Of a stretch of DNA of 64,000 nucleotides, positions 3,103-28,076 are shown in pieces. Under the pieces are notes generated by a model that saw only the letters and a program-made list of their open reading frames with translations, searched no databases and was not told where the DNA came from. The translations under genes and the position numbers were made by a program. How positions within the stretch are numbered: the stretch's first letter is position 1; every line of letters begins with the position of its first letter. Source of the DNA: Campylobacter canadensis (GTDB lineage: Bacteria; Campylobacterota; Campylobacteria; Campylobacterales; Campylobacteraceae); NCBI RefSeq assembly GCF_013177655.1, contig NZ_CP035946.1:1364001-1428000 (forward strand), written 5' to 3'.

Positions 3103-6013
3103 ATATACCGAAAAGGATTTGGAAACCTTTATAGAAAACCATTTATTAAGCAATGGATACATAAAAAGACAAAGCGATGATTATGATAAAAATTATGGTG
3201 TAGATACGCAAATATTGTTTGAGTTTTTGAAATCAACTCAGCTAAAAAGCCTAAATGATTTAGCATTAAGAGTGGGCGAGAATAATGTAAAAGAAAAATT
3301 ACTCAAAAGACTTTCAAGCGAATGTGATAAAAAAGGCACTCTAGAGGTATTAAAAAATGGCTTTAGCGAAAATGGTATAAAATTTAGTTTGCTTTATCCT
3401 AAGCCAAACAATTCATTAAATCAAACAGCTGATTATAATTATTCTTGTAATAAATTTTGTGTAATTCGTCAATTATATTTTAGTAACCAAACTAGCGAGT
3501 CAATAGACATTGTGATTTTTATAAATGGTCTAAGTGTTGCCACAATAGAGCTTAAAAACCCATTTACAAACCAAAACACACAAAATGCAAGATTTCAATA
3601 TACTAAAAGAAATCCAAACGAAACGATATTTAAGCGTAGCATAGTGCATTTTGCACTAGATAGTGAAAGTGCGTATATGAGCACAAAATTAGAGCGTGAA
3701 AATACTAAGTTTTTACCATTCAACAAGGGCTTAAATGATGGTTTAGCAGGTATTGGAGTGCAAACTGGAGCAGGAAATCCACCAAGCGATGGTATAAAGA
3801 CTGCTTATTTATGGGAGAGAATTTTAAGTAAAGAAGTATTACTTGATATTATTTTAAAATACATTCAAATAATCAAAAAAGATGATAAAAATGTGGTGAT
3901 TTTTCCTAGATATCATCAATTTGATGTAGTAGATAAGCTTTTAAAAGATTGTTATGATAAAGGAGTGGGACAAAGATACCTTATCCAACATAGTGCTGGT
4001 AGCGGCAAAAGTAATTCTATATCATGGCTAGCATTGAATTTAGTAGAACTTCATAAAGATGATAAACCTATATTTGATAGTGTTATAGTAATAACTGATA
4101 GAAAAGTATTGGATAGACAAATAAGAGATAATCTTAAAAGCTTCGAGCATAAAGGCGGGGTTATAGAAGCTATAACAGATGGTAGCAAACACCTAAAAGA
4201 AGCATTGATAAATGGCAAAAAAATTATCATCACAACAATTCAAAAATTCCCATACATAGCAGATAGCATAACAAGCCTTGATGGCAAAACATTTGCAGTG
4301 ATAATTGATGAGGCTCACTCATCGCAAGATGGACAAATGTCATCAAAGCTAAGCGAAAGTATCAAAGAAAAATCTATAAAAGCAGATAATTTTGATGAGG
4401 TTTTAGAAGAAATAGCAAACAATAAAAAATTACAATCAAATGCGACTTATTTTGCATTCACAGCTACACCAAAACCAAAAACATTAGAAAAATTTGGCTC
4501 TGCTTGTATGGTAGAAGAGGAGAAGAAATTTTTTCCATATCATTTGTATTCTATGAAACAAGCCATAGAAGAAGGCTATATTTTAGATGTTTTAAAAGGT
4601 TATGTTACTTATGAAAGTTTTTATAAACTTTTAGTTGCAACAAAAGGCGATAAAAAATATGATGAGAAAAAAGCCAAAGCAAAGCTTAAAAAATTTGTAG
4701 AAAGTAGCAAAATCACAATAGAGAAAAAAGCAGACATAATCTGCGAGCATTTTTATACCCAAATAGCTATGAAAATTGATGGTAAAGCAAAAGCTATGGT
4801 GGTTACAAATTCTAGACAAAGTGCTTTAAATTATTATTTTGCGATAAGTAAAATCCTAAAATCTTATCATCCTACATATAAAGCTTTAGTAGCTTTTAGC
4901 GGGGAATTAGAGGTTGATGGTGTTAAATACACAGAATCAAGCGTAAATAACATAAGCGAAGCTGAGCTAAAAAAAGAGTTTAAAAAAGACATTTATAGGT
5001 TTTTAATCGTAGCAGAAAAATACCAAACAGGATTTGATGAACCACTTTTACATACTATGTATGTAGATAAACCGCTAGATGGTATAAGTGCTGTACAGAC
5101 ACTCTCAAGACTAAATAGAGTTTGCAAAAACAAATACAGCACTTGTGTGGTGGATTTTGCTAATACTCATGAAGATATCGCAGAGGCTTTTTCTAAGTTT
5201 TATGAAAATAGTTATCTTGAAAACGAAAGCGACCCTAATAAAATCTTTGATTTAAAAGATAGCATTAAGAGTTTTATGTTTTTTAGTGATGATGAGGTTG
5301 ATGAGTTTGTAAGGTATGTGTTAGAAGAAAAAAGTGAAAATTATATACATTCTTATCTTGATATGATTACTTATAGGATAAATGAAAGCAATGAGGATAC
5401 AAAATTTGAGTTTTATCAAAAATGCAAAAATTATATAAAATCTTATGAATTTTTATCTCAAATTTTACCTTATGCGGATATAGAACTTGAAAAAATTTAT
5501 ATATTTTTACCAAAATTAATTAGCAAAATAAATCTTAGTAAAATACAGCTAGAAAAGGATTTGCTAGCAAATGTAGATTTTGATAGTTATAGAGTGCAAT
5601 TAAAAGCTAAAATGGATATAAAATTAAGTAGTGATGGTGGTTTTTATCCAAGTAATGCAGATGGAAGCAAACAAAAAAGTGAAATTGTGCTAGATGAACT
5701 TGCAAATATTGTTAGAAGTTTTAATGAAAAATATGGCAATTTTGAATTTGATAGTAATGATAAAATCAAAAGATATCTAACAAGCTTAAAAGATGATGTG
5801 TTAGAAGATAAAAGCTTTTTAAAATCTTTGCAAAATTACGATAGACAAAATACAAAAATCGCCTTTAATGAGATACTGCCAAAAGCAATACTAAATAAAT
5901 GTGATACTAATTTTGCTTTTTATACATCATATTGTAATGATAAAGATTTTCAAATTATTATGTCAGAAAAAATCTATGAATATATAGTGGAAGAATATAG
6001 AAAATCTCTTTAA
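3095..6013 (+). CDS. hsdR: Type I restriction enzyme, R (endonuclease/translocase) subunit HsdR
   Basis: This is a 972-residue protein preceded by AAAGGAGAA. The N-terminal nuclease domain shows the PD-(D/E)xK pattern (D138 in SIDIVIF, then IELK at about 151-154). The SF2 translocase follows: Walker A 'QHSAGSGKS' at about 298-306, DEAH at about 405-408, motif III 'FTATPK', and motif VI-like 'QTLSRLNR'. HsdR translocates and cuts unmodified DNA with HsdM/HsdS. Length and motif order look intact, so the system may be functional if hsdM and the rest of hsdS upstream are complete. It is the last gene of the operon; a hairpin lies just after its stop. Confidence 0.93.
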   Translation: MRKYTEKDLETFIENHLLSNGYIKRQSDDYDKNYGVDTQILFEFLKSTQLKSLNDLALRVGENNVKEKLLKRLSSECDKKGTLEVLKNGFSENGIKFSLLYPKPNNSLNQTADYNYSCNKFCVIRQLYFSNQTSESIDIVIFINGLSVATIELKNPFTNQNTQNARFQYTKRNPNETIFKRSIVHFALDSESAYMSTKLERENTKFLPFNKGLNDGLAGIGVQTGAGNPPSDGIKTAYLWERILSKEVLLDIILKYIQIIKKDDKNVVIFPRYHQFDVVDKLLKDCYDKGVGQRYLIQHSAGSGKSNSISWLALNLVELHKDDKPIFDSVIVITDRKVLDRQIRDNLKSFEHKGGVIEAITDGSKHLKEALINGKKIIITTIQKFPYIADSITSLDGKTFAVIIDEAHSSQDGQMSSKLSESIKEKSIKADNFDEVLEEIANNKKLQSNATYFAFTATPKPKTLEKFGSACMVEEEKKFFPYHLYSMKQAIEEGYILDVLKGYVTYESFYKLLVATKGDKKYDEKKAKAKLKKFVESSKITIEKKADIICEHFYTQIAMKIDGKAKAMVVTNSRQSALNYYFAISKILKSYHPTYKALVAFSGELEVDGVKYTESSVNNISEAELKKEFKKDIYRFLIVAEKYQTGFDEPLLHTMYVDKPLDGISAVQTLSRLNRVCKNKYSTCVVDFANTHEDIAEAFSKFYENSYLENESDPNKIFDLKDSIKSFMFFSDDEVDEFVRYVLEEKSENYIHSYLDMITYRINESNEDTKFEFYQKCKNYIKSYEFLSQILPYADIELEKIYIFLPKLISKINLSKIQLEKDLLANVDFDSYRVQLKAKMDIKLSSDGGFYPSNADGSKQKSEIVLDELANIVRSFNEKYGNFEFDSNDKIKRYLTSLKDDVLEDKSFLKSLQNYDRQNTKIAFNEILPKAILNKCDTNFAFYTSYCNDKDFQIIMSEKIYEYIVEEYRKSL

Positions 6014-6017
6014 AATA

Positions 6018-6066
6018 CACGGATTAATTTTAATCCCTGATAGAATTTAAATCCGTGATTTTATTA
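6018..6066 (+). terminator. Probable terminator after hsdR
   Basis: CACGGATT (6018-6025) pairs with AATCCGTG (6050-6057), a perfect 8-bp stem around a 24-nt A+T-rich loop, followed by ATTTTATT. It starts 5 bp after the hsdR stop. The large loop makes it a weak candidate. Confidence 0.4.
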
Positions 6067-6075
6067 AAACAATCC

Positions 6076-6081
6076 TATAAT
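6076..6081 (+). promoter_or_regulatory. Candidate -10 box of the decayed VOC gene
   Basis: TATAAT lies just downstream of the hsdR terminator and about 10 bp before an AAGGAG ribosome-binding site. Both would serve the ruined glyoxalase-type gene that follows. No convincing -35 is seen, which is usual in Campylobacter. Confidence 0.4.
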
Positions 6082-6100
6082 ACGCAAAATTATAAGGAGT

Positions 6101-6480
6101 AAAGAGAGAAAATTAAGTCCGAATTTATTTGTAACAAGCGTAAATAAGTCAATTTTATTTTATGAAAAGCTTGGGTTTTGCGTAGAGCAAAAGATAAAAA
6201 TGAAAACAGCTTAGTGTGGACTTTTATGAAAAGCTGTGGTGCTGAAATAATGCTACAAAATATAAATAGTGCTAAAGAAGAGTTTGCATTCCTTGCTAAT
6301 GGCGAATTAAAAGCAACCTTGAGCCTTTTTATGCAAACTGATGAATAAGATTATAAAGCTATGAAAGAAATAAACGCAAAAATCATAAAAGATATTAGCA
6401 GACTTTTACGGTACGAAAGAATTTGTGGTGCAAGATTTTGATGCTTATGTATGTGTAATCGCACAAAAGCTTGATAAATA
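6101..6480 (+). pseudogene. Decayed VOC (glyoxalase/bleomycin-resistance) family gene
   Basis: Translating in shifting frames gives a recognisable VOC protein: KLSPNLFVTSVNKSILFYEKLGF, then after a frameshift near 6210 SLVWTFMKSCGAEIMLQN, an in-frame TAA near 6347, and after another shift near 6400 FYGTKEFVVQDFDAY, ending in TAG at 6478-6480. The expected start codon is absent, although the ribosome-binding site remains. With at least three lesions it cannot make the original product. The substrate of the ancestral protein is unknown. Confidence 0.75.
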
Positions 6481-6489
6481 GGAGATTTT

Positions 6490-6809
6490 ATGGCTAGTAG
6501 TAAAAAGTATTTAAAGTATGTTTTAGAGCTTTTTAATGAGCCGAATATAACTTATAAATATATGTTTAGCAATATTCTTTGTATTTTAAAGATAAAATCA
6601 TAGGTGGTATTTTTGATAATCAATTACTTTTAAAACCCACAAAATCAGTACTAAACTACATAAAATAGCCAACGCTAGTTTTACCCTACGATGGGGCAAA
6701 AACTAAAATGATTTTGTTTGATAAGAAAGATTGTGAGCTTTTAAAAACAATTGTATTAGCAATGTATGAAGAACTTCCAAATCCTAAGAAAAAGCCTAAA
6801 AAAGCTTAA
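6490..6809 (+). pseudogene. Decayed TfoX N-terminal-domain family gene
   Basis: It begins ATG with MASSKKYLKYVLELFNEP, typical of the stand-alone TfoX-N (COG3070) family. A frameshift occurs near 6595, after which IIGGIFDNQLLLKPTKS continues in another frame. An in-frame TAG lies at about 6667-6669. The C-terminal end, AMYEELPNPKKKPKKA, is intact. TfoX-N proteins are small and poorly characterised; some relatives influence competence. The two lesions indicate loss of function. Confidence 0.75.
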
Positions 6810-6884
6810 TGCAAAAATAAATTCCATACTCCAAAGAAGCGAAAATTAATCACTATCTACTAAATTTTAGTAATTAACAAATAC

Positions 6885-7436
6885 CTACTTTTTAAAGTAT
6901 TTTGACATATCAAAACTACCGTTTTTGATTAATTCATCACCAAAAGCTTCCCTAAAAGCAGCCAAAAATGCGTAGCAAATGATTTCATCTTTGCTATCTT
7001 TTTGCGGTAATTTATTTAAAATGATTTTATTATTTTCTAATTTCACGCAAGATTTTGCTAAATGTGGCAAATTATTATCAAAAAATGACTTTAAATCTTT
7101 GTTTTTATGCTCTTCTTTTAGCTCTTCTAGTTTAGCATACATACTAACACCCATATATGGATACAGCATTTTAGAAAGGCTAAAAACCACCTTATCATTT
7201 TTACCCAAATCATACTTAGGACATACGCTATAATCTTCATAATCTTCTGCTGATTTACTAAAATCACCCGTTAAAATAGCATTTTTATCTTTTTGGTAAT
7301 ACGCATTATGCTCTACTACAAATCTCCCACAAACCGTATTTTTAAGCTTATAATAACTAAAAGCGTCTTTACAAATCTCGCTCATACCATCTAATTTTGT
7401 AAGGATTAGCTCATCGTTTTTTACTTCAATCTTCAT
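6885..7436 (-). CDS. Hypothetical protein, 183 aa
   Basis: I do not recognise this family. The protein is soluble and charged with no signal peptide, and its C-terminal part is predicted helical (CYAFLAAFREAFGDELIKNGSFDMSKYFKK). Its start lies 15 bp downstream of the stop of the gene transcribed before it (7452-7772), so the two probably form a small operon. A degraded copy of its 3' end lies at 8163-8290, showing that this gene was once duplicated nearby. The ribosome-binding site is weak. Confidence 0.6.
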   Translation of the reverse strand: MKIEVKNDELILTKLDGMSEICKDAFSYYKLKNTVCGRFVVEHNAYYQKDKNAILTGDFSKSAEDYEDYSVCPKYDLGKNDKVVFSLSKMLYPYMGVSMYAKLEELKEEHKNKDLKSFFDNNLPHLAKSCVKLENNKIILNKLPQKDSKDEIICYAFLAAFREAFGDELIKNGSFDMSKYFKK

Positions 7437-7451
7437 GCAAGGCTTTTTATC

Positions 7452-7772
7452 TTAAGTGATAAGCTCATTTTGTTCACTAAAGATGATATTTTTATCAAAA
7501 GGTTTAAAATCGCTTAGCTTAAAAGCTTTTGGCTGATAAAGATTATCCACATACCATTTTGTTAAATCATCGCTAAAAAAATAAGCAAAACTAAGTGCTG
7601 TAAATTCTACATTGTGGATATGCTCTAAGCTTTTATGCTTTATTTGTTTAAACCATTCTTCTTTTTCTTCTTCTGTAAAAGCATTAATCAATCCTGCATT
7701 TGCTACGCCAAAAAATACTAAAATAAAAAATAACTTTTTTACCAAAAATCCTGCAAAACTTCTAAATCTCAT
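7452..7772 (-). CDS. Hypothetical exported small protein, 106 aa
   Basis: The start at 7772 is chosen because it places a classic signal peptide (MRFRSFAGFLVKKLFFILVF, then small residues ending ANA) at the very N-terminus; the frame stays open back to 7883. The mature part of about 80 residues is rich in aromatic and charged residues (FTALSFAYFFSDDLTKWYVDNLYQPKAF). I recognise no family. It is followed after 15 bp by the 183-residue hypothetical gene on the same strand. Confidence 0.5.
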   Translation of the reverse strand: MRFRSFAGFLVKKLFFILVFFGVANAGLINAFTEEEKEEWFKQIKHKSLEHIHNVEFTALSFAYFFSDDLTKWYVDNLYQPKAFKLSDFKPFDKNIIFSEQNELIT

Positions 7773-7906
7773 TACTTGACCTTTCATATTCAATAGATTA
7801 CTAGTGCTGTTTTTAGAAAATTTAACAAAACATTTCAACACTTTAATATCCATAAAATACTTATAATTATACTTTATAGGCATTTATTGTTTTTAAAACT
7901 AAAACC

Positions 7907-8060
7907 TTAAGCCATTTTCATATACAACAAAGGATAAGGATTTCCTTGTTCATCTAAATCACTTCTTTTATAAATTACAAAACCCATACGCTCATAAAAA
8001 ATTCTTGCTAAAGGCTTTTGCTCATTTACACATAATTCATTTAACAAAATTGTTGCGGGT
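7907..8060 (-). pseudogene. GNAT acetyltransferase remnant (3' end only)
   Basis: Read on the minus strand, about 50 codons give LLNELCVNEQKPLARIFYER then MGFVIYKRSDLDEQGNPYP, ending LLYMKMA and a stop. This is the characteristic C-terminal half of GNAT N-acetyltransferases (NExN..AxxFYExxGF). No coherent N-terminal half with the acetyl-CoA loop is found upstream, so this is a truncated remnant. Confidence 0.65.
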
Positions 8061-8162
8061 TTAATAATTATCATTTTTATACATTAGCTTTAAAATTACA
8101 ACACATCTTATAATACTAGCTTTGCTTTTTACTTAAACTTTTTAACATTTAAATTAGTGTTT

Positions 8163-8290
8163 AATTTTAAAATATTTTAACATATCAAGACTACCATTTT
8201 TGATTAATTCATCACCAAAAGCTTTTTTTAAGCAGCATTTTTCATCAAAATTAGCATATATGCTCAAATTTATATATGGATATTGTAAAA
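8163..8290 (-). pseudogene. Degraded partial copy of the 6885-7436 gene
   Basis: A stretch of about 50 bp at 8171-8223 matches the 3' end of the neighbouring hypothetical gene (around 6893-6945) with only about four mismatches. A second short piece (8252-8285, encoding a 'YPYI' region) matches its middle. The sequence between is deleted, and frame and start are lost. Confidence 0.6.
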
Positions 8291-8308
8291 TTAATTTTTC
8301 TTAAATAA

Positions 8309-8329
8309 TTTTGCCACTTTTTTGCCACT
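8309..8329 (+). promoter_or_regulatory. Tandem 10-bp direct repeat, candidate response-regulator operator
   Basis: TTTTGCCACT occurs at 8309-8318 and again at 8320-8329, an 11-bp period, which is one helical turn. The pair ends 7 bp before the candidate -10 (8337-8342). OmpR/PhoB-type regulators typically bind such head-to-tail repeats next to -10 boxes that lack a -35. An OmpR-type regulator is encoded in the same operon at 10709, so autoregulation is a natural inference. Confidence 0.5.
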
Positions 8330-8336
8330 GCTTTTT

Positions 8337-8342
8337 TATAAA
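8337..8342 (+). promoter_or_regulatory. Candidate -10 box of the flavoprotein/cytochrome operon
   Basis: TATAAA lies in a T-rich run 26 bp before the ATG at 8368. A strong AAAGGAGG ribosome-binding site intervenes. No -35 hexamer is recognisable; the direct repeats occupy its place. Confidence 0.45.
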
Positions 8343-8367
8343 ATTTAAGCATTAAAAGGAGGATAAA

Positions 8368-9855
8368 ATGATAAATAGAAGAAATTTTCTTAAAACACTT
8401 ACAGGAACAACTATTGCACTCCCTAGTATTTTAAACGCCAACGAAAACCTTAAAAAAGATATTAAATTTGATGAGATAGCAGATGTAATCATCGTTGGAA
8501 GTGGCGTAAGTGCTCATATATGTGCTGCATATTTGGTAAAAAACAAGCTAGATGTTTTAATGATTGAGAAAATGGATAGAATTGGAGGTAATTCAGTTCT
8601 TTCTCAGCAAGATTTTGCTGTACTTAATTCGGATTTACAAATTAAAGCAGGTATAAAAGATAGCGAAGAATTATTTTTAAACGATTTAAACAAAGCTGGA
8701 GCTGGATACAATCATTTAGAACATTCTTTAAGAATTATAAGAAATTCAAACGAAGCTTATGAATTTGCAAAAAGCTGTGGGGTTAAATATGCCAATAAGC
8801 TTAAGTTTTTAGGCGGACATAGTGTTGCTAGAAGTGTTGAGACTATCGGAGGTGGCGGTGCTTGCATAAAGGCATTACACGAGTTTTTCTTAGCAAACAA
8901 AGGAAGATTTAAAAACGAAACTAAAAGCGATGAAATCATTCAAGATGAAAACGCTAAAGTAATAGGCATAAGCGTAAGAGAAAATTATAGATTTGATAGA
9001 AATCTAGCAAATGATGATAGGCAAAATTTAAGTGGGGTTAAGAAAAATTATAAAGCAAGACTTGCTGTAGTTTTTGCAACTGGTGGATTTAGCCGTGATG
9101 TTGAGTTTAGAAGCATAGTAAATCCTAGATTAAGACTAGCAAAAAGCCCATCAAGCTTAGGTCAAACTGCAGGTGCATTAAAGCAAATGCTAAAAATCGG
9201 AGCAATTGCAACCCAACTAGCACTTAGTAGATTTTCTTTTGGAATTCCAACGGAGGATTTAATTTATGGAATTATGCTTGATAAGAATGCTAAAAGATTT
9301 TTAAACGAAGATGGCGATAGACAAGGCTTATCAAATAAAATCCTAGCACATATGCAAAATCTAAACACCACAAGTTATCCAACCATTATTTTAGATAGCA
9401 CAGGTTTTGCTAATTCGCATGACCCAAATAGAATGCAAAGCTTTATAATAGCAGGAAAGATGAAGAAATTTGATACTTTAGACGAACTTGCAAATCATTT
9501 TAAACTAAATAAAGATGAATTATTAAAGAGTATGCAAATTTATGAAGATGGCATTAAAAAAAATAAAGATGAGTTCAAAAAAGATTTAAGCAAGATTAAA
9601 AACTCTAGTATGAGTAAAGCACCTTTTTATGCAATGACAGCTGCACCTGGGCTTAGCTATACACCAGGTGGTGTTTGGGCTGATACAAATATGAGAGTTT
9701 TACACATTAGCAATTATGAACCTATAAAAGGACTTTATGCAATAGGCGAAGCAACAGGTGGCGTTCATGGACAAGCAAGACTTACAAGCTGCTCTATTCC
9801 TGATTGTATGACTTCAGGTATTGCTTGTGCGAAAGATATTTTAAAAGGAATATAA
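8368..9855 (+). CDS. Tat-exported FAD-dependent reductase of the flavocytochrome c / fumarate-reductase-like family (flavoprotein subunit)
   Basis: This is a 495-residue protein. The N-terminus NRRNFLKTLTG is a twin-arginine signal, so the folded flavoprotein should be exported to the periplasm. GSGVSA at about residues 44-49 and E67 form the FAD dinucleotide-binding fold. The C-terminal FAD contacts GLYAIGEATGGVHG and QARL are present. It has no haem domain of its own; the haems are in the next two genes, as in split fcc-type systems such as Wolinella fccABC. By eye, the acid/base pair region NEDGDR aligns with fumarate reductases. The His and the catalytic Arg (about His365, Arg402 and His504 in Shewanella FccA numbering) appear replaced, so fumarate is unlikely to be the substrate. 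True substrate unknown. First gene of a six-gene operon. Confidence 0.85.
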   Translation: MINRRNFLKTLTGTTIALPSILNANENLKKDIKFDEIADVIIVGSGVSAHICAAYLVKNKLDVLMIEKMDRIGGNSVLSQQDFAVLNSDLQIKAGIKDSEELFLNDLNKAGAGYNHLEHSLRIIRNSNEAYEFAKSCGVKYANKLKFLGGHSVARSVETIGGGGACIKALHEFFLANKGRFKNETKSDEIIQDENAKVIGISVRENYRFDRNLANDDRQNLSGVKKNYKARLAVVFATGGFSRDVEFRSIVNPRLRLAKSPSSLGQTAGALKQMLKIGAIATQLALSRFSFGIPTEDLIYGIMLDKNAKRFLNEDGDRQGLSNKILAHMQNLNTTSYPTIILDSTGFANSHDPNRMQSFIIAGKMKKFDTLDELANHFKLNKDELLKSMQIYEDGIKKNKDEFKKDLSKIKNSSMSKAPFYAMTAAPGLSYTPGGVWADTNMRVLHISNYEPIKGLYAIGEATGGVHGQARLTSCSIPDCMTSGIACAKDILKGI

Positions 9856-10200
9856 ATGCGAAAATTATTAATGATTTTAATGTTTAGTATTTTTGCACTA
9901 GCTAACGAATTTTTAATCAAGCCACACCATGTAGATGTAAAGCTAAAATGCAGCGATTGTCATAAACAAGCAAATGAAAAAGATTATAAAGCACTTGATT
10001 CTAACGCTTGTTTAAGCTGTCATGGGAGTAAAGAAAAATTAGCAAAAAGACTTGATTTTTTAAAGGGCAAAAACCCACATAATAGCATTCATGATAATGC
10101 TAATTTAAATTGTTATACCTGTCATAACGAGCATAAACCTTCGTTTAATATGTGCAATACTTGCCACAATACTAAAACTTGGATGAAGGAGATAAAATGA
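9856..10200 (+). CDS. Periplasmic small tetrahaem cytochrome c
   Basis: This 114-residue protein has a short signal peptide (MRKLLMILMFSIFALANE). It contains four CxxCH haem-attachment motifs, CSDCH, CLSCH, CYTCH and CNTCH, plus extra His residues for axial ligation. The spacing resembles the cytochrome domain of Shewanella-type flavocytochrome c, here as a separate polypeptide. It starts on the base after the flavoprotein stop, so they are co-translated. The likely role is carrying electrons between the membrane quinol-oxidising cytochrome and the exported flavoprotein. Confidence 0.9.
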   Translation: MRKLLMILMFSIFALANEFLIKPHHVDVKLKCSDCHKQANEKDYKALDSNACLSCHGSKEKLAKRLDFLKGKNPHNSIHDNANLNCYTCHNEHKPSFNMCNTCHNTKTWMKEIK

Positions 10201-10712
10201 AAAAAACTATTATTTTTATTTCATCTATTGTAGTTTTAACTTTAATTTTTGTGTTTTTTTCACATAAGGCTATTAAGATGACAGGTGGTGATAAATTTTG
10301 TGCGAGTTGCCATGTAATGCAGCCTATGAAAAAATCTTATATTAAAGATGTTCATGGTGGTAATAATAATTTAGGTATTAAAGCAAATTGCGTAGATTGC
10401 CATTTGCCACATGATAATATGTTTAATTATTTAGGCACTAAGGCTTATAATGGCATTAAAGAATTCAGTATCACTGCTTTAGGTAAAGATAAAGATATTA
10501 ATTGGCAAGATAAATTAGAACACAAAAAAGATTATGTTTATGATAGTGGCTGTATGAGTTGCCATCAAGACATAACCAAAGTAAATTCTAAAAACGAAAT
10601 GCAAAATATTATGCATAAAAGATATTTAGATTACGCAAATGAATTAAAATGTGTAAGTTGCCATACTCATGTAGGTCATGATGGTTTAAGGGGTGAATTA
10701 AATAAATTATGA
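10197..10712 (+). CDS. NapC/NrfH-type membrane-anchored tetrahaem cytochrome (quinol dehydrogenase)
   Basis: This is 171 residues from the ATG at 10197, which overlaps the previous stop (ATGA) and follows AAGGAGAT. One N-terminal membrane helix (TIIFISSIVVLTLIFVFF) anchors a periplasmic domain with four haem motifs: CASCH, CVDCH, CMSCH and CVSCH. The first is followed by Met (CASCHVM), the NrfH-type signature. Family members take electrons from menaquinol and pass them to periplasmic reductases. The inferred chain is menaquinol, this protein, the small tetrahaem cytochrome, then the flavoprotein. Confidence 0.9.
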   Translation: MKKTIIFISSIVVLTLIFVFFSHKAIKMTGGDKFCASCHVMQPMKKSYIKDVHGGNNNLGIKANCVDCHLPHDNMFNYLGTKAYNGIKEFSITALGKDKDINWQDKLEHKKDYVYDSGCMSCHQDITKVNSKNEMQNIMHKRYLDYANELKCVSCHTHVGHDGLRGELNKL

Positions 10713-11368
10713 AAAATTATACTATTTTGTATGCTGAAGATGATTTAAAACTAGCAAATCAAGTTATTGATTTGCTAGAACTACTTGATTTTAAAGTATT
10801 TTATGCAAAAGATGGCTTAAGTGCTTTAGAAATTATTAAAGAAGAAAAAATTGATATATTATTACTTGATATTTCTATGCCAAGACTTGATGGTTTAAAA
10901 TTATTAGAGCAAATTAGACAAAATGATAATAAAACTCCTGCTATTATGATTACAGCCTTAAGCGATTCGCCAACTTTATTAAATGCTGTTGAATTAAATA
11001 TTTGTAAGTATTTAATAAAGCCCTTTGATAGATTAAAACTTGAACTTGCTTTAGATAAAGCAATTAAGCAAAGCAATAACTTAATTAAAGTAAGCAACAA
11101 TGTATATTTAAATATGCTTACAAATGAATTATTAGTAAATAATGAACTTAAAAAACTTAGCAAAAAAGAGTTTTTATTGCTTGAAATACTATTAAAAAGT
11201 AGTCCTAATATAGTTGATTTTTATACAATTTGTGAATATGTTTATAATGATTATAATGTAAGCTCTGATGCTATTAAATCACTTGTTAAAAACCTTAGAA
11301 AAAAGATAAATTATAAAGGAATAATCCATAATGCAAATGCTCGTGGATACTACATCAAAACTACTTAA
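10709..11368 (+). CDS. OmpR/PhoB-family response regulator
   Basis: This is a 219-residue protein. The receiver domain has the acidic pocket (E10-D11-D12), phosphoacceptor D54 (LLLDISMP), T83 region (ITAL) and K104 (LIKPF). The C-terminal half is a winged-helix DNA-binding domain (KKLSKKEFLLLEILL, then SSDAIKSLVKNLRKKI and a GYYI wing). It overlaps the previous gene by 4 bp and the kinase by 38 bp. It probably controls this operon; the direct repeats at 8309-8329 are the obvious candidate site. Confidence 0.92.
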   Translation: MKNYTILYAEDDLKLANQVIDLLELLDFKVFYAKDGLSALEIIKEEKIDILLLDISMPRLDGLKLLEQIRQNDNKTPAIMITALSDSPTLLNAVELNICKYLIKPFDRLKLELALDKAIKQSNNLIKVSNNVYLNMLTNELLVNNELKKLSKKEFLLLEILLKSSPNIVDFYTICEYVYNDYNVSSDAIKSLVKNLRKKINYKGIIHNANARGYYIKTT

Positions 11369-12956
11369 TATAAGCATTCGCAAAAAAGCCTTTATATTTG
11401 TTTTAGCACTTATTGTTTTTGTTTGTATTGTGCTTAATTTTTTATATATAAGCCAACAAAAAAACTATTTATTTCAAAGTAAAAATAATTTTAATGATAG
11501 ATTTGAGTATTTTTATAATGATTTTTTAAATAATTTGAAAAATAATGCTTTTAGTATTAGTTATGAATTTAGTTCTAATTTAGATGGTTTAAAAAATTAC
11601 GAAAAGCTATTTAAATTAAAGCAATTATTTTTAAACTTAAGTTCAAATGAAGCGTATTTAAAAGATATAAAACTTTATTTATTAGATGAAAAAATATGCC
11701 TTACAAAGGACAAAATTATTTTAGAATGTAATTACGATAAGAATTTAAATATTTTACTTAATTTTCAAAATGAACCTTATTATTTAATTAGCTTTAAAAT
11801 TAATTCAAAATACGCAATAAATTACACAATCAGTGCTAAAAAATTATTAGATAATATAAAACTTCAAGATGAATTCTTAGCTGCTTTAAGATATAAAAAT
11901 CAGTATTTTTACAATGAATCAGATTGGCACAATAAACTAAAACTGCTTATGAAAAAAGATGGAGTGATTAATTTTGATAATAAATATTATATAAATAACG
12001 AAATTTATCTTGATAATAACTTTTCTATTTTAATTTTAAAGGATATTACAAAAGATTATTTACACCATTTAAAAACATCTAAAAAAGCTTTTATAATAAG
12101 TATGATATTAGTATTTTTTGCGTTTATTTGTGTGTATTTTGTCTTGGGGTTTTTAATAAATAAACTCTTAAAAACAGAAGAAAAATTAAAAAAATTAAAC
12201 GCTAATTTACAAAATGAAATTGATTTAGCCGTAAATACCATAAAAGATAAGTTAGAAGAAAATAGACAAAAAGAACAAATGCTAAACCATCAATCAAAAC
12301 TAGCTGCGTTAGGGCAAATGTTAGCTTGTATAGCTCACGAATACAAGCAGCCCTTAGCAACTTTGGGTGCAATTTCAAGCTATCTTGAAATAAGTATTGA
12401 AAAAAATAAAATTGATGATAAATTTAAAAATAAATTAAAAGAAATAAATCCTATTTTAAGCTATATGTCAAAAACAATTGATGATTTTTATAACTTTTTT
12501 AAAACAAAAGAAGAAAAAAGTAAATTTTTTATTTATGAAGCAATAAATAATTCTTTAACAATTAGTAATGCCAGCCTTAATAAAAATGCAGTTTGTGTTA
12601 TTTTAAGACTTAATAAAAATATCCAAATCAATACTTATAAAAATAGCCTTACACATATACTAATCAACTTACTTACTAATGCAAAAGACGCTTTAAAGAC
12701 TAGCAAAAATCCTTTTATAATCATTAATTTATATTCTTATAAAAACAGTTTTTACATTAGCATTAAAGATAATGGCGAAGGAATTAAAGATGAATTAAAA
12801 GAAGAAATTTTTAAACCTTATTTTAGTACAAAAGACAGCTCAGGACTTGGTCTTTTTATGATAAAAAATATTTTAAAAAAGGACTTAAACGCTACAATTT
12901 TTGTAAAAAATAGAAAAATCGGAGCGCATTTTATAATTAGGATAGATAATGAATGA
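11331..12956 (+). CDS. Membrane sensor histidine kinase
   Basis: This is a 541-residue protein. Transmembrane helices lie at about residues 20-40 and 253-277, and between them is a roughly 210-residue periplasmic sensing domain of unrecognised family. A coiled coil (about 282-315) leads to the H-box with H336 (ACIAHEYKQPLATLG). An N-box (ILINLLTNAKDAL), G1 box (IKDNGEGI), F-box (FKPYFSTK) and G2 box (GLGLFMIKNIL) complete the ATPase domain. The start overlaps the regulator gene by 38 bp with AAAGGA upstream. It likely senses the substrate of the exported reductase or a related metabolite, an inference from operon position. Confidence 0.92.
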   Translation: MQMLVDTTSKLLNISIRKKAFIFVLALIVFVCIVLNFLYISQQKNYLFQSKNNFNDRFEYFYNDFLNNLKNNAFSISYEFSSNLDGLKNYEKLFKLKQLFLNLSSNEAYLKDIKLYLLDEKICLTKDKIILECNYDKNLNILLNFQNEPYYLISFKINSKYAINYTISAKKLLDNIKLQDEFLAALRYKNQYFYNESDWHNKLKLLMKKDGVINFDNKYYINNEIYLDNNFSILILKDITKDYLHHLKTSKKAFIISMILVFFAFICVYFVLGFLINKLLKTEEKLKKLNANLQNEIDLAVNTIKDKLEENRQKEQMLNHQSKLAALGQMLACIAHEYKQPLATLGAISSYLEISIEKNKIDDKFKNKLKEINPILSYMSKTIDDFYNFFKTKEEKSKFFIYEAINNSLTISNASLNKNAVCVILRLNKNIQINTYKNSLTHILINLLTNAKDALKTSKNPFIIINLYSYKNSFYISIKDNGEGIKDELKEEIFKPYFSTKDSSGLGLFMIKNILKKDLNATIFVKNRKIGAHFIIRIDNE

Positions 12957-14178
12957 ATTGTTTTGCTTAATTGTTGGCGGTGGGCTTAGTGGTCTAGTTT
13001 TAGCAAATTTATTAGCAGATAAAAACATTTTATTAATTGAACAAGACGAGCAATTAGGCGGAGTAGCTAGCTATATGAATTTTGCCGCATCAAATACCAG
13101 CTTTCAGGCATTCGCAAATATAAAAGATGATAAATTTTATGAGGATTTAATATCTTATTCACCTAATTATTCGGACTTTTCTATGCTTAAGGTTTTAAGC
13201 GATAATTCATCACATGCAATAGAACTTTTGCAAAGTTTTGGTGTGGAATTTGAATTAGGGATTAAAAGTAGTTTTAATCATCAAATTCCAAGAGAATTAA
13301 GCCCTTTAAAAGATGCCAAGCAAAGCGTAATAAATCCACTCATAAATAGATTAATTAGCAAAAATGTAAATATTTTAACAAAGGCAAAATTACTTGATTT
13401 TAAAGATAACACAGCAAGTATTTTATATAAAGATAAAATCTTAAAAATAAAGCTTAAAAATATAGCCTTTTGCACGGGTGGCTTTGCAAATGATAAAGAT
13501 TTTATAAAAATTCATTACCCATTAGCATTTTACGCTAAAACTCTAAGCAAAAATAATGCAAATTCACTCAAAATTATGCTTAAAAATAATGCAATCCCAA
13601 CCCAGCTTAGCTTGATGAGATTTGCTTTTATTTTGCCTATGGAGATTTTTAAATATGGAATTTTAATTAATTCTGATTTTGTAAGATTTGTTAGCGAAGA
13701 TAAACAAAGGCAAGAATTAGCAATAGCTATTTTAAACGAGTTTAAGCAGGGCAAAAAAGTAAAATTGCTTTTAGATAATCACGGAATAAATTATATAAAT
13801 AACATAAGCAATTTTAAGAAATATTATTCTTTAAAAGACATTGATAAAAGGCTTATTGATACGGTAAATGATTATAATTTAGGTATTACAAATAAAATTG
13901 ATAACTTTGGTAAAAACTTAAATAATATCGCTATAAAAAAGATAAAAGAAAGCTTGTTTTATTTATGCGATGTTGATGTTTATTTAAACTATACTTTAGG
14001 CGGGGTTAAGTCTAATACAAATGCACAAATTATTGATATTAATACAAATAAAGCAATAGATAATATCTTTGTAATAGGAGAAGCTAGTGCGATGTTTGGC
14101 GAAGCAAGGCTTAGTGGGGCTGCAAGTACTGCTTGTGTTGTTTTTGCTATGAATGCAGCTAGATATATGCTAAAATAA
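12949..14178 (+). CDS. Cytoplasmic FAD flavoprotein, shortened paralogue of the exported reductase
   Basis: This is a 409-residue protein without a signal peptide. VGGGLSG near residues 9-15 and E34 give the FAD fold, and the C-terminus NIFVIGEASAMFG, EARLSGAAST matches the FAD site of the first gene. The middle aligns clearly with the exported protein (IPTQLSLMRFAFILP against IATQLALSRFSFGIP; YGILINSDFVRFVSED against YGIMLDKNAKRFLNED), so the two are paralogues. It overlaps the kinase by 8 bp. With no cytochrome partner in the cytoplasm, it could run the reverse reaction, process the product, or assist sensing. The role is unknown. Confidence 0.75.
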   Translation: MNELFCLIVGGGLSGLVLANLLADKNILLIEQDEQLGGVASYMNFAASNTSFQAFANIKDDKFYEDLISYSPNYSDFSMLKVLSDNSSHAIELLQSFGVEFELGIKSSFNHQIPRELSPLKDAKQSVINPLINRLISKNVNILTKAKLLDFKDNTASILYKDKILKIKLKNIAFCTGGFANDKDFIKIHYPLAFYAKTLSKNNANSLKIMLKNNAIPTQLSLMRFAFILPMEIFKYGILINSDFVRFVSEDKQRQELAIAILNEFKQGKKVKLLLDNHGINYINNISNFKKYYSLKDIDKRLIDTVNDYNLGITNKIDNFGKNLNNIAIKKIKESLFYLCDVDVYLNYTLGGVKSNTNAQIIDINTNKAIDNIFVIGEASAMFGEARLSGAASTACVVFAMNAARYMLK

Positions 14179-14182
14179 AACA

Positions 14183-14791
14183 TTAATCAAGTTTTAAAAG
14201 TTTAGAATTAAACGCTTTAACATCAGCTAAATCGTGTGTTACCATTATACAAGCTATGTTAAGTTTGTTTAAATAATCAAGTACAAAGGTTCTAATTGAT
14301 GAGCGAAGATTTGCATCTAAAGCACAAAAAGGCTCATCTAAAAGCAATAATTTTGGCTTTTGTGCAATACATCTTGCAAGAGCTAATCTTTGTTGCTGAC
14401 CACCACTTAAAGTTTTTGGATAAGCATTTGCAAGATTGCTAATTTCAAGAGAAGTTAAAATATCCATTGCTATTTGTTTTTTGTTAGCTTCTTTGATAGC
14501 AAAAGTTACATTTTCTATCGCCTTTAAATGTGGAAAAAGTGCGTAATCTTGAAATAAAAATCCTATATTTCTTTTATGTGCAGGTATTTTAGTAATATTT
14601 ATACCATCTAAAAATATTTCTCCTTCTTGTATTTCTTCAAAACCTGCAATTAGTTTTAAAATAGTACTTTTGCCGCTTCCACTTTGTCCTAAAATACACA
14701 ATTTTTCTGATTTTTCAAGGCTAAAACTAAGATTATTAAAAAGTGCTTTTTCATAAGCAAAGCTTAGATTTTTAAATTCAAAATAACTCAT
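14183..14791 (-). CDS. fbpC: Ferric-iron ABC transporter ATP-binding protein
   Basis: This is a 202-residue ABC ATPase: Walker A GQSGSGKST, Q-loop FLFQDYALFPH, signature LSGGQQQRLALAR, Walker B LLLLDEPF, H-loop MVTHD. It is much shorter than the roughly 350 residues of neisserial FbpC because it ends soon after the H-loop; the C-terminal regulatory domain is missing. Its start overlaps the permease stop by 4 bp. It lies third in fbpA-fbpB-fbpC, the same order as C. jejuni cfbpABC. Its end is convergent with the flavoprotein operon, with only 4 bp between stops. Confidence 0.88.
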   Translation of the reverse strand: MSYFEFKNLSFAYEKALFNNLSFSLEKSEKLCILGQSGSGKSTILKLIAGFEEIQEGEIFLDGINITKIPAHKRNIGFLFQDYALFPHLKAIENVTFAIKEANKKQIAMDILTSLEISNLANAYPKTLSGGQQQRLALARCIAQKPKLLLLDEPFCALDANLRSSIRTFVLDYLNKLNIACIMVTHDLADVKAFNSKLLKLD

Positions 14792-16383
14792 TTTCTTTCC
14801 TTAATTAAATTAAAAATTACTAGCAATATAAAGCAAGTTAGCACAAGCACAAGTGCAGGAGCGCTAAGCATTGCAAGTTGCTCATCGCTTGCGTATCTAT
14901 CCATTTCAAAAGATAAAGTTTTAAAATTACTTGTTGCTAGCAAACTTGCAAGTGGTAATTCTTTTAAAATTTCAATAAAAATTAATATAAAAGAACTTAT
15001 TAAACTAGGAAGAACTAAAATAAATTCTATTTTAAAAAAACTGCTAAATGGGTTTTTTCCTAGACTTAACCTTGCGTATGTAATTGAGCTTGGCAGTTTA
15101 TTAAAAGCAGCATCAAGCCCATTAAAGCCAAGAGCTAAAAATCTAACAACATAAGCAAATATTAAAAGCACTGGGCTAAGCGTTAAAAATAAAGCATTAT
15201 TAATACCAAAAAAATTATAAATTGGCTCATTAATTCTATCAATACAAATAAATAAAGCAAGCATACAAATAGCAATAACAGAACCAGGAATGCTATAACC
15301 CATATTTGATAAAGAGCTAATAATTATCTTAGCCCTACCCTTCTTAAAGCGTTGATTAAAAGCTAAAAATGTAGCAATAATTAAAATTATTAAGCTTGAG
15401 CTTAAGCTTAAAAAGAAGGTGTTTTTGCTTAAAATAAATAAAGCAGAGTAATTAACATCTAAAAAACTTCTCTTAAACCAAATTAAAATATGAATAACAG
15501 GTAATAAAAAACTAAAAAAAAATATGAACGAAAATAACACAATAATTATAAAACTAGCTATTTTACTAAGTTTTTTTCTTTTTATCGGATAAGTTTTTGA
15601 GCTTATTTCATAAGGTCTTCTAAATATTTTTTCAACAAGTAAAATAAAAAACACAACAAAAAGTAAAATAACAGCAAGTTTAATAGCCGCATTTAAATCA
15701 TTATAAGCAATCCAAGCCTTATAAATCCCTGTGCTAAAGACATGTAAGCCATAGTAGTTTGGCGCTCCATAAGCATTAAGTGTTTCCATAGCGCAAAGAC
15801 TTGCTCCTGCAACAATGGCTGGGCGACTTAGCGGTAAAATAATTTGAAAAAATATTGCTGTATCGCTTTTACCAAGGCTCTTTGCACTGTTTATAATATT
15901 TGCTGAAAATTTAGCTAAAAAACCCCTAAGTAAAATATAAACATAAGGAAAAAAAGCAAGGCTAAATACAAAAATAGCACCATAAATATTCATAATATCA
16001 AAATGAATTCTTAAATTAAATTGCTCTCTTAAAAATATATTAAACCAAGAAAAATAAGAGAAAAAATCAGCATAAATATAAGCAAATAAATAGCTAGGAA
16101 TAGCAAAAGGTAGCACTAAAACAAAGCGAAAAAAATTTCTAAATCTATACTCATAAAAACTTTCAAAATACGCTAAAAATATAGCAATAATAGTAGAAAA
16201 CAACAAGGTAAAAAATAATATTATTCCTGTATTTTTAAAATACTCTACTAAATAACTATCAAATAACACAGCCGTGTTATCTTTTATTGGCTGTGTTATG
16301 AAAAACATTACATAAAAAATAGGAATGAGTATTAAAAATAATAAAAAATAAGCAAGAATATCGCTTAATTTTCTCACTTCCAC
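14788..16383 (-). CDS. fbpB: Ferric-iron ABC transporter permease
   Basis: This 531-residue polytopic protein consists of two fused binding-protein-dependent permease domains, each with an EAA-type loop (SAKSLGKSDTAIFFQIILPL and ARLSLGKNPFSSFFKIEFIL). This is the standard architecture of FbpB/SfuB iron permeases. It overlaps the binding-protein gene by 10 bp and the ATPase gene by 4 bp. It moves Fe3+ delivered by FbpA across the inner membrane. Confidence 0.9.
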   Translation of the reverse strand: MEVRKLSDILAYFLLFLILIPIFYVMFFITQPIKDNTAVLFDSYLVEYFKNTGIILFFTLLFSTIIAIFLAYFESFYEYRFRNFFRFVLVLPFAIPSYLFAYIYADFFSYFSWFNIFLREQFNLRIHFDIMNIYGAIFVFSLAFFPYVYILLRGFLAKFSANIINSAKSLGKSDTAIFFQIILPLSRPAIVAGASLCAMETLNAYGAPNYYGLHVFSTGIYKAWIAYNDLNAAIKLAVILLFVVFFILLVEKIFRRPYEISSKTYPIKRKKLSKIASFIIIVLFSFIFFFSFLLPVIHILIWFKRSFLDVNYSALFILSKNTFFLSLSSSLIILIIATFLAFNQRFKKGRAKIIISSLSNMGYSIPGSVIAICMLALFICIDRINEPIYNFFGINNALFLTLSPVLLIFAYVVRFLALGFNGLDAAFNKLPSSITYARLSLGKNPFSSFFKIEFILVLPSLISSFILIFIEILKELPLASLLATSNFKTLSFEMDRYASDEQLAMLSAPALVLVLTCFILLVIFNLIKERK

Positions 16384-17375
16384 AACGCCTTATCTGCTAT
16401 TACCTGAGCTTGTTCAAGGTTTTTTGCAATATCATTAAAATCAATTTCACTTGCTTTAAACTCGCCCCAAGATTTTACAACCTCAGCAGGACTTGCTTTA
16501 GAATTTACAGGAAATTCATAATTTGTTTGAGCTAGAATATTTTGTGCTTCTTTACTTAGCAAAAATTCCATCAAAGCAGTTGCTTCTTTTATGTTTTTAG
16601 CATATTTTGTAATACCTGCACCACTGATATTTATATGAGTTCCGCCATCGTTTTGATTTGGAAAAAATATCTTTAATTTTTTAAATACTTCTTGCTCAAT
16701 TGGGTCTTTTGAAACCGACATTCTACCTAAATAATAACTATTCATAATAGCAATAGCACCATTTCCAGCCACAATCGCCTTTGCTTGGTCTCTATCATTA
16801 CCCTTTGGGTCTCTTGCAAAATTTGCTACAAGTTTATTTGCCCAATTTTGAGTTTTTTCTACTCCATCTTTTGTAATCATAAAGGCTATTAGATGGCGAT
16901 TATATGATGATGTTGATGAGCGTGTTAAAACCTTGCCTTTAAACTTAGCATTAGCTAAATCTTCATAAGTACTAAGCTCTTTTGCATCAATTTGTTTTGG
17001 GTCATATACAAAAACCCTAGCTCTATAAGTGATTGCAGCCCAAGTTTTGTCTTTGTCTTTGAATTTTTGTGGGACAATTTCATCTACAACTTTTGATGAA
17101 TAAGCTTGTAAAAGCCCTTTTGTCTTAGCCTTGTATAAATCCCCTGCTCCAACTGTCATAAAAAGGTCTGCACTTGTATCTTTTCCTTCTTGTTCTAATT
17201 TGTTTAAAAGTGGGTCAATTTTATCTTGAACTAAATTTACTTTTATCCCTGTTTTAGCTGTAAATGCATCAAATACAATCTTATCTGAATCATAATGTCT
17301 TGAAGTATAAACATTTACAACACCTTGCGCTAAAAGCATTGAACTTGCCATTAAAGTTAAAACAAGCTTTTTCAA
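16374..17375 (-). CDS. fbpA: Periplasmic ferric-iron-binding protein
   Basis: This 333-residue protein has a signal peptide (MKKLVLTLMASSMLLAQG). VNVYTSRHYDSD at the mature N-terminus and the adjacent tyrosines Y214-Y215 (NSYYLGRM) match the iron-coordinating residues of FbpA-type transferrin-fold proteins. It is the C. jejuni CfbpA type. It is the first gene of the operon, with AAGGAG upstream and a possible Fur site in the 170-bp gap to the divergent ept-like gene. Confidence 0.93.
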   Translation of the reverse strand: MKKLVLTLMASSMLLAQGVVNVYTSRHYDSDKIVFDAFTAKTGIKVNLVQDKIDPLLNKLEQEGKDTSADLFMTVGAGDLYKAKTKGLLQAYSSKVVDEIVPQKFKDKDKTWAAITYRARVFVYDPKQIDAKELSTYEDLANAKFKGKVLTRSSTSSYNRHLIAFMITKDGVEKTQNWANKLVANFARDPKGNDRDQAKAIVAGNGAIAIMNSYYLGRMSVSKDPIEQEVFKKLKIFFPNQNDGGTHINISGAGITKYAKNIKEATALMEFLLSKEAQNILAQTNYEFPVNSKASPAEVVKSWGEFKASEIDFNDIAKNLEQAQVIADKALWK

Positions 17376-26560: not shown

Positions 26561-27322
26561 TTAAGTTAATATTAATTCTTTTAGTTTTTTAGCAAATATC
26601 TGTGCATAAAATTCATCAAAATACATAGCAGGTTCAATGCATTCAATCTCATTTACATAATAAAGTTTTGATAAAAATATATCTACCCTAGCATAAAAAC
26701 ACTGCGTGCTAAACTCACTTAGCGCCTTTTTTGCAATATTAATAAGCTCACTATCTGGTTTATAATCTTTTATAACAACGCCATAATTTGCATTGGCTCT
26801 GAAATCGTTATTTTTAACTCTTTGTTTAGCATAAAAAAACTCATTTTGAATAAAAAATAAACACAACTCGCTATCATGCTTGATAAAAGGTTGGATTAAA
26901 GCTTTATTTTTATAATCATTAATATTAATTTTTTCTTTATCTTTATGTACCGCAAAACCACTCTGCCCTACTAATGGTTTTATAATTTGCCCCTTGCTTA
27001 TTTCATAAGTGTCTGTTATCTTGCTAGGTACTGCATTGCTAATATTTAATAAATAATCTTTTTTTGAATTTTTTCTAACGATGTTTGAATCATTAATTAA
27101 TGTTATCTTTTTTTCATCACATTCATTTAAAAATTCTAAGAAATAATCATATTTTAAAGAATAATCCCAAACCCCTAACATTAAAGCATATTTACTCTTT
27201 ATTTCTTGCTTATCCCAAACTACATAAGTGCTTTTAATATTTAATTTTTCTAAATGTTTTTTTAATAAATTAAGCGATATTGAACCATCTTTATATTCAT
27301 TGCTAACTAAAATACTAATCAT
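26561..27322 (-). CDS. ATP-grasp ligase family protein, last gene of a metal ABC-transporter operon
   Basis: This is a 253-residue protein. ATP-grasp features are IIKPLVGQSGFAVHKD (Lys and small loop), LIQPFI (hinge and ligand segment), and the metal-binding end ARVDIFLSKLYYVNEIECIE with the EPAMYF tail. The last pattern (R.D ... NEIE.IEP..YF) is typical of RimK/glutathione-synthetase-like amino-acid ligases. It overlaps the ABC ATPase gene by 8 bp, so it is co-translated. It probably forms an amide bond on an amino acid or peptide. Whether that product is a metallophore or a storage or trafficking compound cannot be read here. Confidence 0.7.
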   Translation of the reverse strand: MISILVSNEYKDGSISLNLLKKHLEKLNIKSTYVVWDKQEIKSKYALMLGVWDYSLKYDYFLEFLNECDEKKITLINDSNIVRKNSKKDYLLNISNAVPSKITDTYEISKGQIIKPLVGQSGFAVHKDKEKININDYKNKALIQPFIKHDSELCLFFIQNEFFYAKQRVKNNDFRANANYGVVIKDYKPDSELINIAKKALSEFSTQCFYARVDIFLSKLYYVNEIECIEPAMYFDEFYAQIFAKKLKELILT

Positions 27323-28076
27323 TACAAGGCCTTAAAACTTGAATAAAAGCTGTATCATCTTCATCATAAATTATTCTTGCATCAATTTTATAAATCTTTT
27401 TTAATAATTCTTTATTTAATATGTCTTTTGCATTGCCTTGAGCTATTATACTTTTATCGTGTAAAACTATTAATTCATCGCAAAATAACGTTGCTAAATT
27501 TAAATCATGTAAAATTACAATGCTAATTAAATTCTTTGATTTTACTTGTTTTTTTAGCTCACTAAGCAACAAAGACTGAAAATGCAAATCAAGCGCACTA
27601 ACAGGCTCATCAAGCATTAATAACTCTGGTTCTTTTGCTAAAACTTGAGCAAAGGCTATCATTTGTTTTTGCCCACCACTTAGCATATTTATTTGCATAT
27701 TTGCTAAATGTTCTATGTTTAAATCTCTCATAATTTTTAAAGCAAACTCCAAATCGCTATCCTTTAAAACTATACCTAAATCTTTTAATTTAGCTAAAAG
27801 CACAACTTCAATAGCACTAAAGCTAACATCGTTTAAACTTTGTTGTACCATAAAAGCAATTTTATCCTTATAATTTTTATCAGTATGCAAAGTATTATTT
27901 AATGTAATTTTTGCACTTGAATTTATATTTTGATAAATTGCTTCTAAAATTGTACTTTTACCTGCACCGTTTGCGCCAATTAAGGCATAAATCTTACCTT
28001 TTTCTAAACTTAAACTAACATTATTTATAATTTGTTTACTACCTCTTTTTACAGATAAATTTTCAATTAAAAGCAT
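27315..28076 (-). CDS. FecE/BtuD-type ABC transporter ATP-binding protein
   Basis: This is 253 residues from the ATG at 28076 (AGGAAAAAA in front); the frame is open 42 bp further up inside the permease gene. Walker A GANGAGKST, signature LSGGQKQMIAFAQ, Walker B LLMLDEPVSALD and H-loop VILHDLN are all present. It energises import of an iron-siderophore, haem or related ligand with the two upstream genes. It overlaps the permease gene by 14 bp. Confidence 0.88.
   Translation of the reverse strand: MLLIENLSVKRGSKQIINNVSLSLEKGKIYALIGANGAGKSTILEAIYQNINSSAKITLNNTLHTDKNYKDKIAFMVQQSLNDVSFSAIEVVLLAKLKDLGIVLKDSDLEFALKIMRDLNIEHLANMQINMLSGGQKQMIAFAQVLAKEPELLMLDEPVSALDLHFQSLLLSELKKQVKSKNLISIVILHDLNLATLFCDELIVLHDKSIIAQGNAKDILNKELLKKIYKIDARIIYDEDDTAFIQVLRPCND

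Follow-up and report, generated by a model that had tools for sequence, protein, structure and literature searches.

A six-gene operon of Campylobacter canadensis joining a candidate respiratory flavin reductase to its own predicted sensor and a cytoplasmic twin

What is reduced by an exported flavoprotein that is encoded together with two cytochromes, a two-component system and a second flavoprotein that stays in the cytoplasm? The question is posed by an operon of Campylobacter canadensis that lies in a 64,000-nucleotide stretch of DNA, here called the window (positions 1,364,001-1,428,000 of the 1.92-Mb single-contig genome, G000 below). Between 8368 and 14178 six open reading frames follow one another in the same direction, abutting or overlapping at junctions of 0, -4, -4, -38 and -8 bp (Table 1); the products of the first and last genes are called flav1 and flav2. 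An initial annotation had described six genes with zero or negative spacing, as the reading frames and their junctions confirm, and had named the six protein families correctly, to judge from Pfam matches, CXXCH counts and the twin-arginine translocation (Tat) leader. Its span of 8309-14178 is right at the far end, but 8309 is the first base of a direct repeat rather than a gene start. Our answer, to which we give a probability of roughly two in three (0.68), is that the operon is a self-contained, self-regulated respiratory module for one organic acceptor, which would be unsaturated, probably anionic, and something other than fumarate.

Table 1. The six genes and the promoter-region features, in window coordinates (FAD, flavin adenine dinucleotide).
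Feature	Coordinates	Strand	Details
Direct repeat of 11 bp, TTTTGCCACTT / TTTTGCCACTG, candidate OmpR-type regulator site	8309..8330	+	9/9 core positions repeated
-10-like box TATAAAAT	8337..8344	+	6 bp past the repeat; read from the sequence, not an independent prediction
flav1, Tat-exported FAD reductase	8368..9855	+	495 amino acids, RRNFLK Tat leader; FAD_binding_2, E 5e-42
Soluble periplasmic tetrahaem cytochrome c3	9856..10200	+	114 amino acids, 4 CXXCH, Sec-like leader; Cytochrom_c3_2, E 3e-17
NrfH/NapC-type membrane-anchored tetrahaem quinol dehydrogenase	10197..10712	+	4 CXXCH and membrane anchor; Cytochrom_NNT (NapC/NirT), E 5e-27
OmpR-type response regulator	10709..11368	+	Response_reg, E 3e-25; Trans_reg_C, E 5e-10
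Membrane sensor histidine kinase	11331..12956	+	HATPase_c, E 7e-14; periplasmic double-Cache-like domain at about 11457-12083
flav2, cytoplasmic FAD paralogue	12949..14178	+	409 amino acids, no leader; FAD_binding_2, E 1e-14

The first argument for a single functional unit comes from its conservation. Two samples were searched, 153 genomes of the family (Campylobacter in the broad sense) and 397 genomes drawn from the phylum. Orthologues of flav2 occur in five of the 153 family genomes (648-798 bits, the next matches being flav1 proteins at no more than 214 bits) and in none of the phylum sample outside those five. Orthologues of the kinase occur in the identical five genomes (781-1002 bits, next match 275) and nowhere else among the genomes searched. 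All five (G000, G007, G018, G025 and G065) keep the complete six-gene order, so the suspicion that the genes might usually lie apart in relatives does not hold for the carriers of flav2. Junction sizes in G007 and G025 are identical to those of the window operon; G018 differs only at the NrfH/regulator junction (-1, when the latter of a pair of adjacent ATG codons is taken as the start), and G065 has 1, -4, +13, -17 and -8 bp. The flanking genes differ in every case: an iron-type ATP-binding cassette (ABC) transporter in the window, glutaminase and autotransporter genes in G018, a purine-type permease in G007, diacylglycerol kinase in G025, and ankyrin and FAD-oxidase genes in G065. The unit has therefore been preserved while its surroundings changed; the flanking genes of the carriers, when checked, gave no clue to the substrate. 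The operon is present in all four genomes sampled from the genus of G000, G007, G018 and G025, while G065 is the sole carrier among 14 genomes of its own genus, where the operon is thus patchy. Ratios of nonsynonymous to synonymous substitution (dN/dS) of 0.06-0.23 across all six genes (0.14-0.19 for flav2) indicate real proteins under purifying selection, and a search of the plus strand within the operon revealed no terminator-like site.

The first three genes form a triad of the FccABC type: an exported FAD reductase, then a soluble tetrahaem c3, then a membrane cytochrome of the NrfH/NapC type. The last of these matches the NrfH model with an E value of 3e-23, under the equivalog cut-off, and besides its ATG start at 10197 an alternative TTG at 10179 is likewise open. 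The two cytochrome families support the menaquinol-type electron delivery that had been proposed for the locus. Could the module nevertheless serve for detoxification, or for shedding electrons onto an unsaturated compound that is harmful or abundant, with no energy conserved and with induction as a defence? The flav1 subfamily is found in 13 of the 397 phylum genomes, with a clear gap in scores (at least 870 bits versus at most 464): five have the six-gene operon, two only the reductase-c3-NrfH triad (G092 and G107) and six flav1 alone, and the family search adds G142 as a seventh genome with a solitary flav1. Seven relatives thus keep flav1 with no adjoining cytochromes, which would suit this reading. 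On the other hand, the NrfH-type quinol dehydrogenase and the c3 are kept both in the operon and in the triads of G092 and G107, under strong selection, as expected if electrons enter from the quinol pool. Detoxification alone therefore seems unlikely to us, although the two readings are not mutually exclusive. The solitary flav1 of a Campylobacter concisus strain (L056/L091) is broken by an internal stop and may be dispensable in that strain. A single-protein scan of genome contigs returned nothing, and an alignment-based scan returned three loci.

What kind of reductase is flav1? It scores 283.5 bits against the flavocytochrome c model TIGR01813, just under the curated cut-off of 285.45, and it matches the UrdA and Fcc3 structures at E values of 1e-38 to 1e-35. 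A maximum-likelihood tree unites flav1 and flav2 with a Ferrimonas protein and with proteins of Salmonella and Photobacterium plasmids in one clade (100/100 support), on the opposite side from Wolinella FccA, Fcc3 and UrdA. Three features make up the signature of the subfamily. The loop is short, with R(F/Y)(S/A)F, and in members other than flav2 it takes the form R(F/Y)xFxIPTED (RFSFGIPTED in the window); the hinge has (S/N/T)Y(T/S).GG or a similar sequence instead of HHTMGG; and there is a final Arg-Leu. Where Fcc3, UrdA and Wolinella FccA have a histidine pair, all members have S-Y, N-Y or T-Y. Residues R288, E296, R318, Y431 and R471 of flav1 are invariant. Orthology with FccA was considered and rejected on account of the separate clade, the SYTPGG hinge and the shortened loop, so that the initial label of an fcc-type system fits the triad but not its reductase. 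Judged by sequence, flav1 represents a distinct reductase subfamily, neither FccA nor a fumarate reductase.

The second flavoprotein keeps much of this pocket. It starts directly at the FAD motif, with neither leader nor haem motif, and scores only 133.2 bits against TIGR01813. R224, R254, Y348 and R387, kept in the five flav2 orthologues, correspond to R288, R318, Y431 and R471 of flav1, and an acidic residue stands at the position of E296. The two proteins have in common the short R(F/Y)xF loop, the (S/N)Y that replaces the histidine pair, and both catalytic arginines. Because these pocket residues are retained while the leader and haem motif are absent, flav2 most probably acts in the cytoplasm on the same molecule as flav1, or on a close relative of it, much as the initial annotation had guessed. 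It might instead be a cytoplasmic ligand or redox sensor that partners the kinase or the regulator and is no enzyme of the pathway. The flav2 gene overlaps that of the kinase by 8 bp in five of five genomes, the two share one distribution, and flav2 has no visible electron partner, all of which would suit a sensor. Against it, both the hinge tyrosine and the catalytic arginines are invariant, and comparable fcc operons with kinases do without flav2; we regard this alternative as rather improbable.

An ordinary periplasmic fumarate reductase of the FccA/Fcc3 kind, with a local regulator attached, would be a simpler proposal. The proteins do belong to one superfamily, pairwise alignment equates T295-E296 of flav1 with T377-E378 of Fcc3, and the proton path of Fcc3, E378-R402, has its match in E296 and R318. 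Counterparts of Fcc3 R402 and R544 are present and invariant (R318 and R471 in flav1, R254 and R387 in flav2). In UrdA, R411 is the proton donor and R560 a carboxylate ligand, and a carboxylate is also held by H520, a histidine that fumarate reductases use in the same way; in Fcc3, His365 and His504 bind the carboxylates of fumarate (PMC7921117). The alignment pairs R318 with UrdA R411, R471 with R560, and H520 with Y431. Both flavoproteins lack the equivalents of His365 and His504, the histidine pair is replaced throughout the subfamily, a shorter specificity loop contains one additional arginine, and Fcc3 R381 has no counterpart. Urocanate is not indicated either, since the region of UrdA Tyr373 and Asp388 is shortened in flav1 and reads RFSFGIPTED instead. 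Moreover, MfrA and FrdA are encoded in the same genome, each above its curated cut-off, which makes fumarate an unlikely target for flav1. An ordinary fumarate reductase, which the initial annotation had named as one outcome that would refute its proposal, is thus very unlikely. MfrABE, the methylmenaquinol:fumarate reductase, resembles flav1 in having a periplasmic flavoprotein reductase, but belongs to the SdhA/FrdA-like branch and has Fe-S and CCG subunits.

If the operon serves one acceptor, the kinase is the natural candidate for its sensor. The regulator has the receiver and Trans_reg_C winged helix of the OmpR type. For the kinase, an AlphaFold model of residues 17-290, built from 12 sequences and including the transmembrane helices, reached a mean confidence (predicted local distance difference test, pLDDT) of 82.7 and replaced a useless 5-sequence kinase model with a pLDDT of 46. 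Foldseek matched it to the double-Cache domains of vpHK1S-Z8, PscC, KinD and DctB, with E values of about 1e-4 to 1e-3 and low template-modelling (TM) scores of 0.3-0.45; the solved matches include KinD with pyruvate and DctB with succinate. The dCache_3 family (PF14827) is found in six of 12 kinase relatives, and when solved structures were searched with a profile of the sensor domain, nothing meaningful emerged. The periplasmic part of the kinase is thus predicted to be a double-Cache ligand sensor, in keeping with the periplasmic sensing that had been suggested and with the modelling proposed as a check of it. The nearest relatives of the kinase adjoin molybdo-reductase operons. One such kinase/regulator pair is a paralogue in the window genome (G000:C1:1677124-1684245; L057, 9125-16246), divergent from an operon for a TtrA-like molybdoprotein, NrfD and an Fe-S protein, and the arrangement recurs in G115, G117, G062, G111 and G121 (L121-L125). 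This TtrA-like operon and the TtrS-like sensors of the Salmonella and Photobacterium loci prompted us to consider a sulfur oxyanion as substrate, a lead that is weak because sensors of this sort are generic.

Where would the regulator act? OmpR-type activators typically use an 11-bp direct repeat at the -35 position. Upstream of flav1 there is such a repeat, whose score was equalled in 0 of 2000 shuffles; the shares of shuffles reaching the score of the repeat in each carrier are 0% for G000, 1.5% for G018, 0.9% for G025, 0.05% for G065 and 55% for G007. G018, G025 and G065 have counterparts in the equivalent position, although the region upstream of flav1 is otherwise unalignable. In the window genome the 15-mer TGCCACTTTTTTGCC matches exactly at a single site; G018 and G007 carry it unchanged and G025 with one mismatch, while the version in G065 is TTTCACATTTT, present twice. 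In G018 a second near copy of the 15-mer (G018:C1:1654003-1654017) lies about 150 bp upstream of the first. No comparable repeat was found before six fcc loci without this kinase. An A/T box similar to TATAAAAT occurs in the other four genomes, and a promoter scan did no better than shuffles. The repeat looks like the regulator's own putative site, which would support the proposed self-regulation. That mere chance has put the regulator and kinase beside the reductase and that their targets lie elsewhere, such pairs being common in Campylobacterota, is scarcely credible given the 38-bp gene overlap, the same position in five neighbourhoods and an exact repeat at this promoter only.

The respiratory module that we favor would then work as follows. 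Electrons from menaquinol would pass to the NrfH-type cytochrome, on to the soluble tetrahaem c3 and from there to the FAD of flav1 in the periplasm. By analogy with its family, flav1 would reduce its substrate by hydride transfer, with R318 (Fcc3 R402, UrdA R411) as proton donor and R471 holding the carboxylate. The predicted double-Cache domain may bind the acceptor or a related molecule, whereupon the kinase would phosphorylate the regulator. The latter would bind the direct repeat over the -35 position and raise expression of all six genes, its own included, while flav2 would act on the acceptor, or on a close relative of it, after its entry into the cell. Several observations count against this scheme. 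What is called respiration here could be just electron disposal or detoxification, and the genomes that have a solitary flav1 or just the triad indicate that flav1 can be retained without the regulators and without flav2. The window kinase itself has no Cache hit in Pfam, so to speak of a double-Cache domain is to rely on the 12-sequence model and on relatives. G007 has just a weaker half-repeat, not significant by itself. As for flav2, its missing electron partner has been noted, and the tree places it as sister of the Campylobacter flav1 proteins (92/81) on long branches, so that it may instead be older.

How new is the arrangement? G252 (L135), which we take to be Wolinella succinogenes, carries a 515-amino-acid RRDLIK flavoprotein, and at this locus (L135, 5455-9933) genes for a PAS-type histidine kinase and for a regulator come directly after fccABC on the same strand. 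Wolinella FccABC has been associated with methacrylate reduction. The order of Tat flavoprotein, tetrahaem c3 and NrfH/NapC-type cytochrome is that of the window, but FccA (NP_906388.1) falls in the other clade with HHTMGG and a long loop, flav2 is lacking, and the two regulatory genes differ in type and come in the reverse order. The triad arrangement of W. succinogenes fccABC is credited to Simon et al. 1998 in a later paper (PMC4427408). In G034 the genes after an fcc triad encode a dCache_1 kinase and a regulator. Salmonella plasmids and Photobacterium pDA100 (L141, NZ_CP024166.1 48497-61840; L143, NZ_CP119424.1) share with the window the IPTED reductase subfamily, the c3 and NapC genes and a dedicated two-component system, but the latter is a divergent TtrSR-like pair with a PhnD-type sensor and a FixJ/TtrR-like regulator, and flav2 is again lacking. 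No published description of this plasmid cluster was found; a similar flavoprotein also occurs on a Citrobacter plasmid. From these loci, a triad with a dedicated two-component system is a recurring kind, with at least four kinds of kinase.

More distant systems differ in how electrons reach the flavin. Shewanella UrdA (urocanate) and Fcc3 (fumarate) share with flav1 the FAD and clamp domains, the proton-donor arginine and the carboxylate-binding arginine, but have a fused haem or flavin mononucleotide domain, the histidine pair and a longer specificity loop, whereas flav1 would be expected to draw electrons from separate cytochromes. The Mrd/Mcc methacrylate redox system of Geobacter sulfurreducens AM-1 is closer in this respect, since a separate flavoprotein and a tetrahaem cytochrome reduce an unsaturated acid in the periplasm; the portion of the source that covers it describes no flav2-like partner, the comparison being by description only (PMC4427408). 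Our literature searches, on fccABC and on this composition, found no description of the six-gene set, nor of a twin that shares most of the pocket but stays in the cytoplasm. The initial claim of novelty therefore stands for the set that contains flav2, not for the triad with a two-component system, which Wolinella and the Salmonella and Photobacterium plasmids also have; flav2 is the new element.

Other observations concern neighbors and related loci. Iron-type ABC transporter gene sets lie near the operon at 14183-17375 and 27315-30203 of the window, the first convergent with flav2. At L136 and L138, fcc-type triads are followed by a gene for an exported protein of 420-440 amino acids and by a large membrane receptor; that of L136 is a methyl-accepting chemoreceptor, which suggests taxis toward the acceptor. 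L132 (G035, 3733-15433) has three tandem flavoprotein genes, with a fourth nearby, and one c3/NrfH pair.

Perhaps the two flavoproteins form a matched pair, such that one molecule is reduced outside the cell as an acceptor and handled inside it (reduced, re-oxidised or measured) under one ligand-controlled operon, and the RFxFxIPTED subfamily would be an undescribed type of respiratory reductase that was twice independently coupled to unrelated periplasmic sensors; we put this forward tentatively, as a possibility with the balance still against it. The subfamily signature in any case separates proteins that existing models lump together under generic flavocytochrome c. Exported flavin reductases with no assigned substrate are numerous in bacteria of animal hosts, and as this reductase comes together with a predicted sensor and a promoter site of its own, the inducer of the operon or the ligand of the sensor could reveal the substrate.

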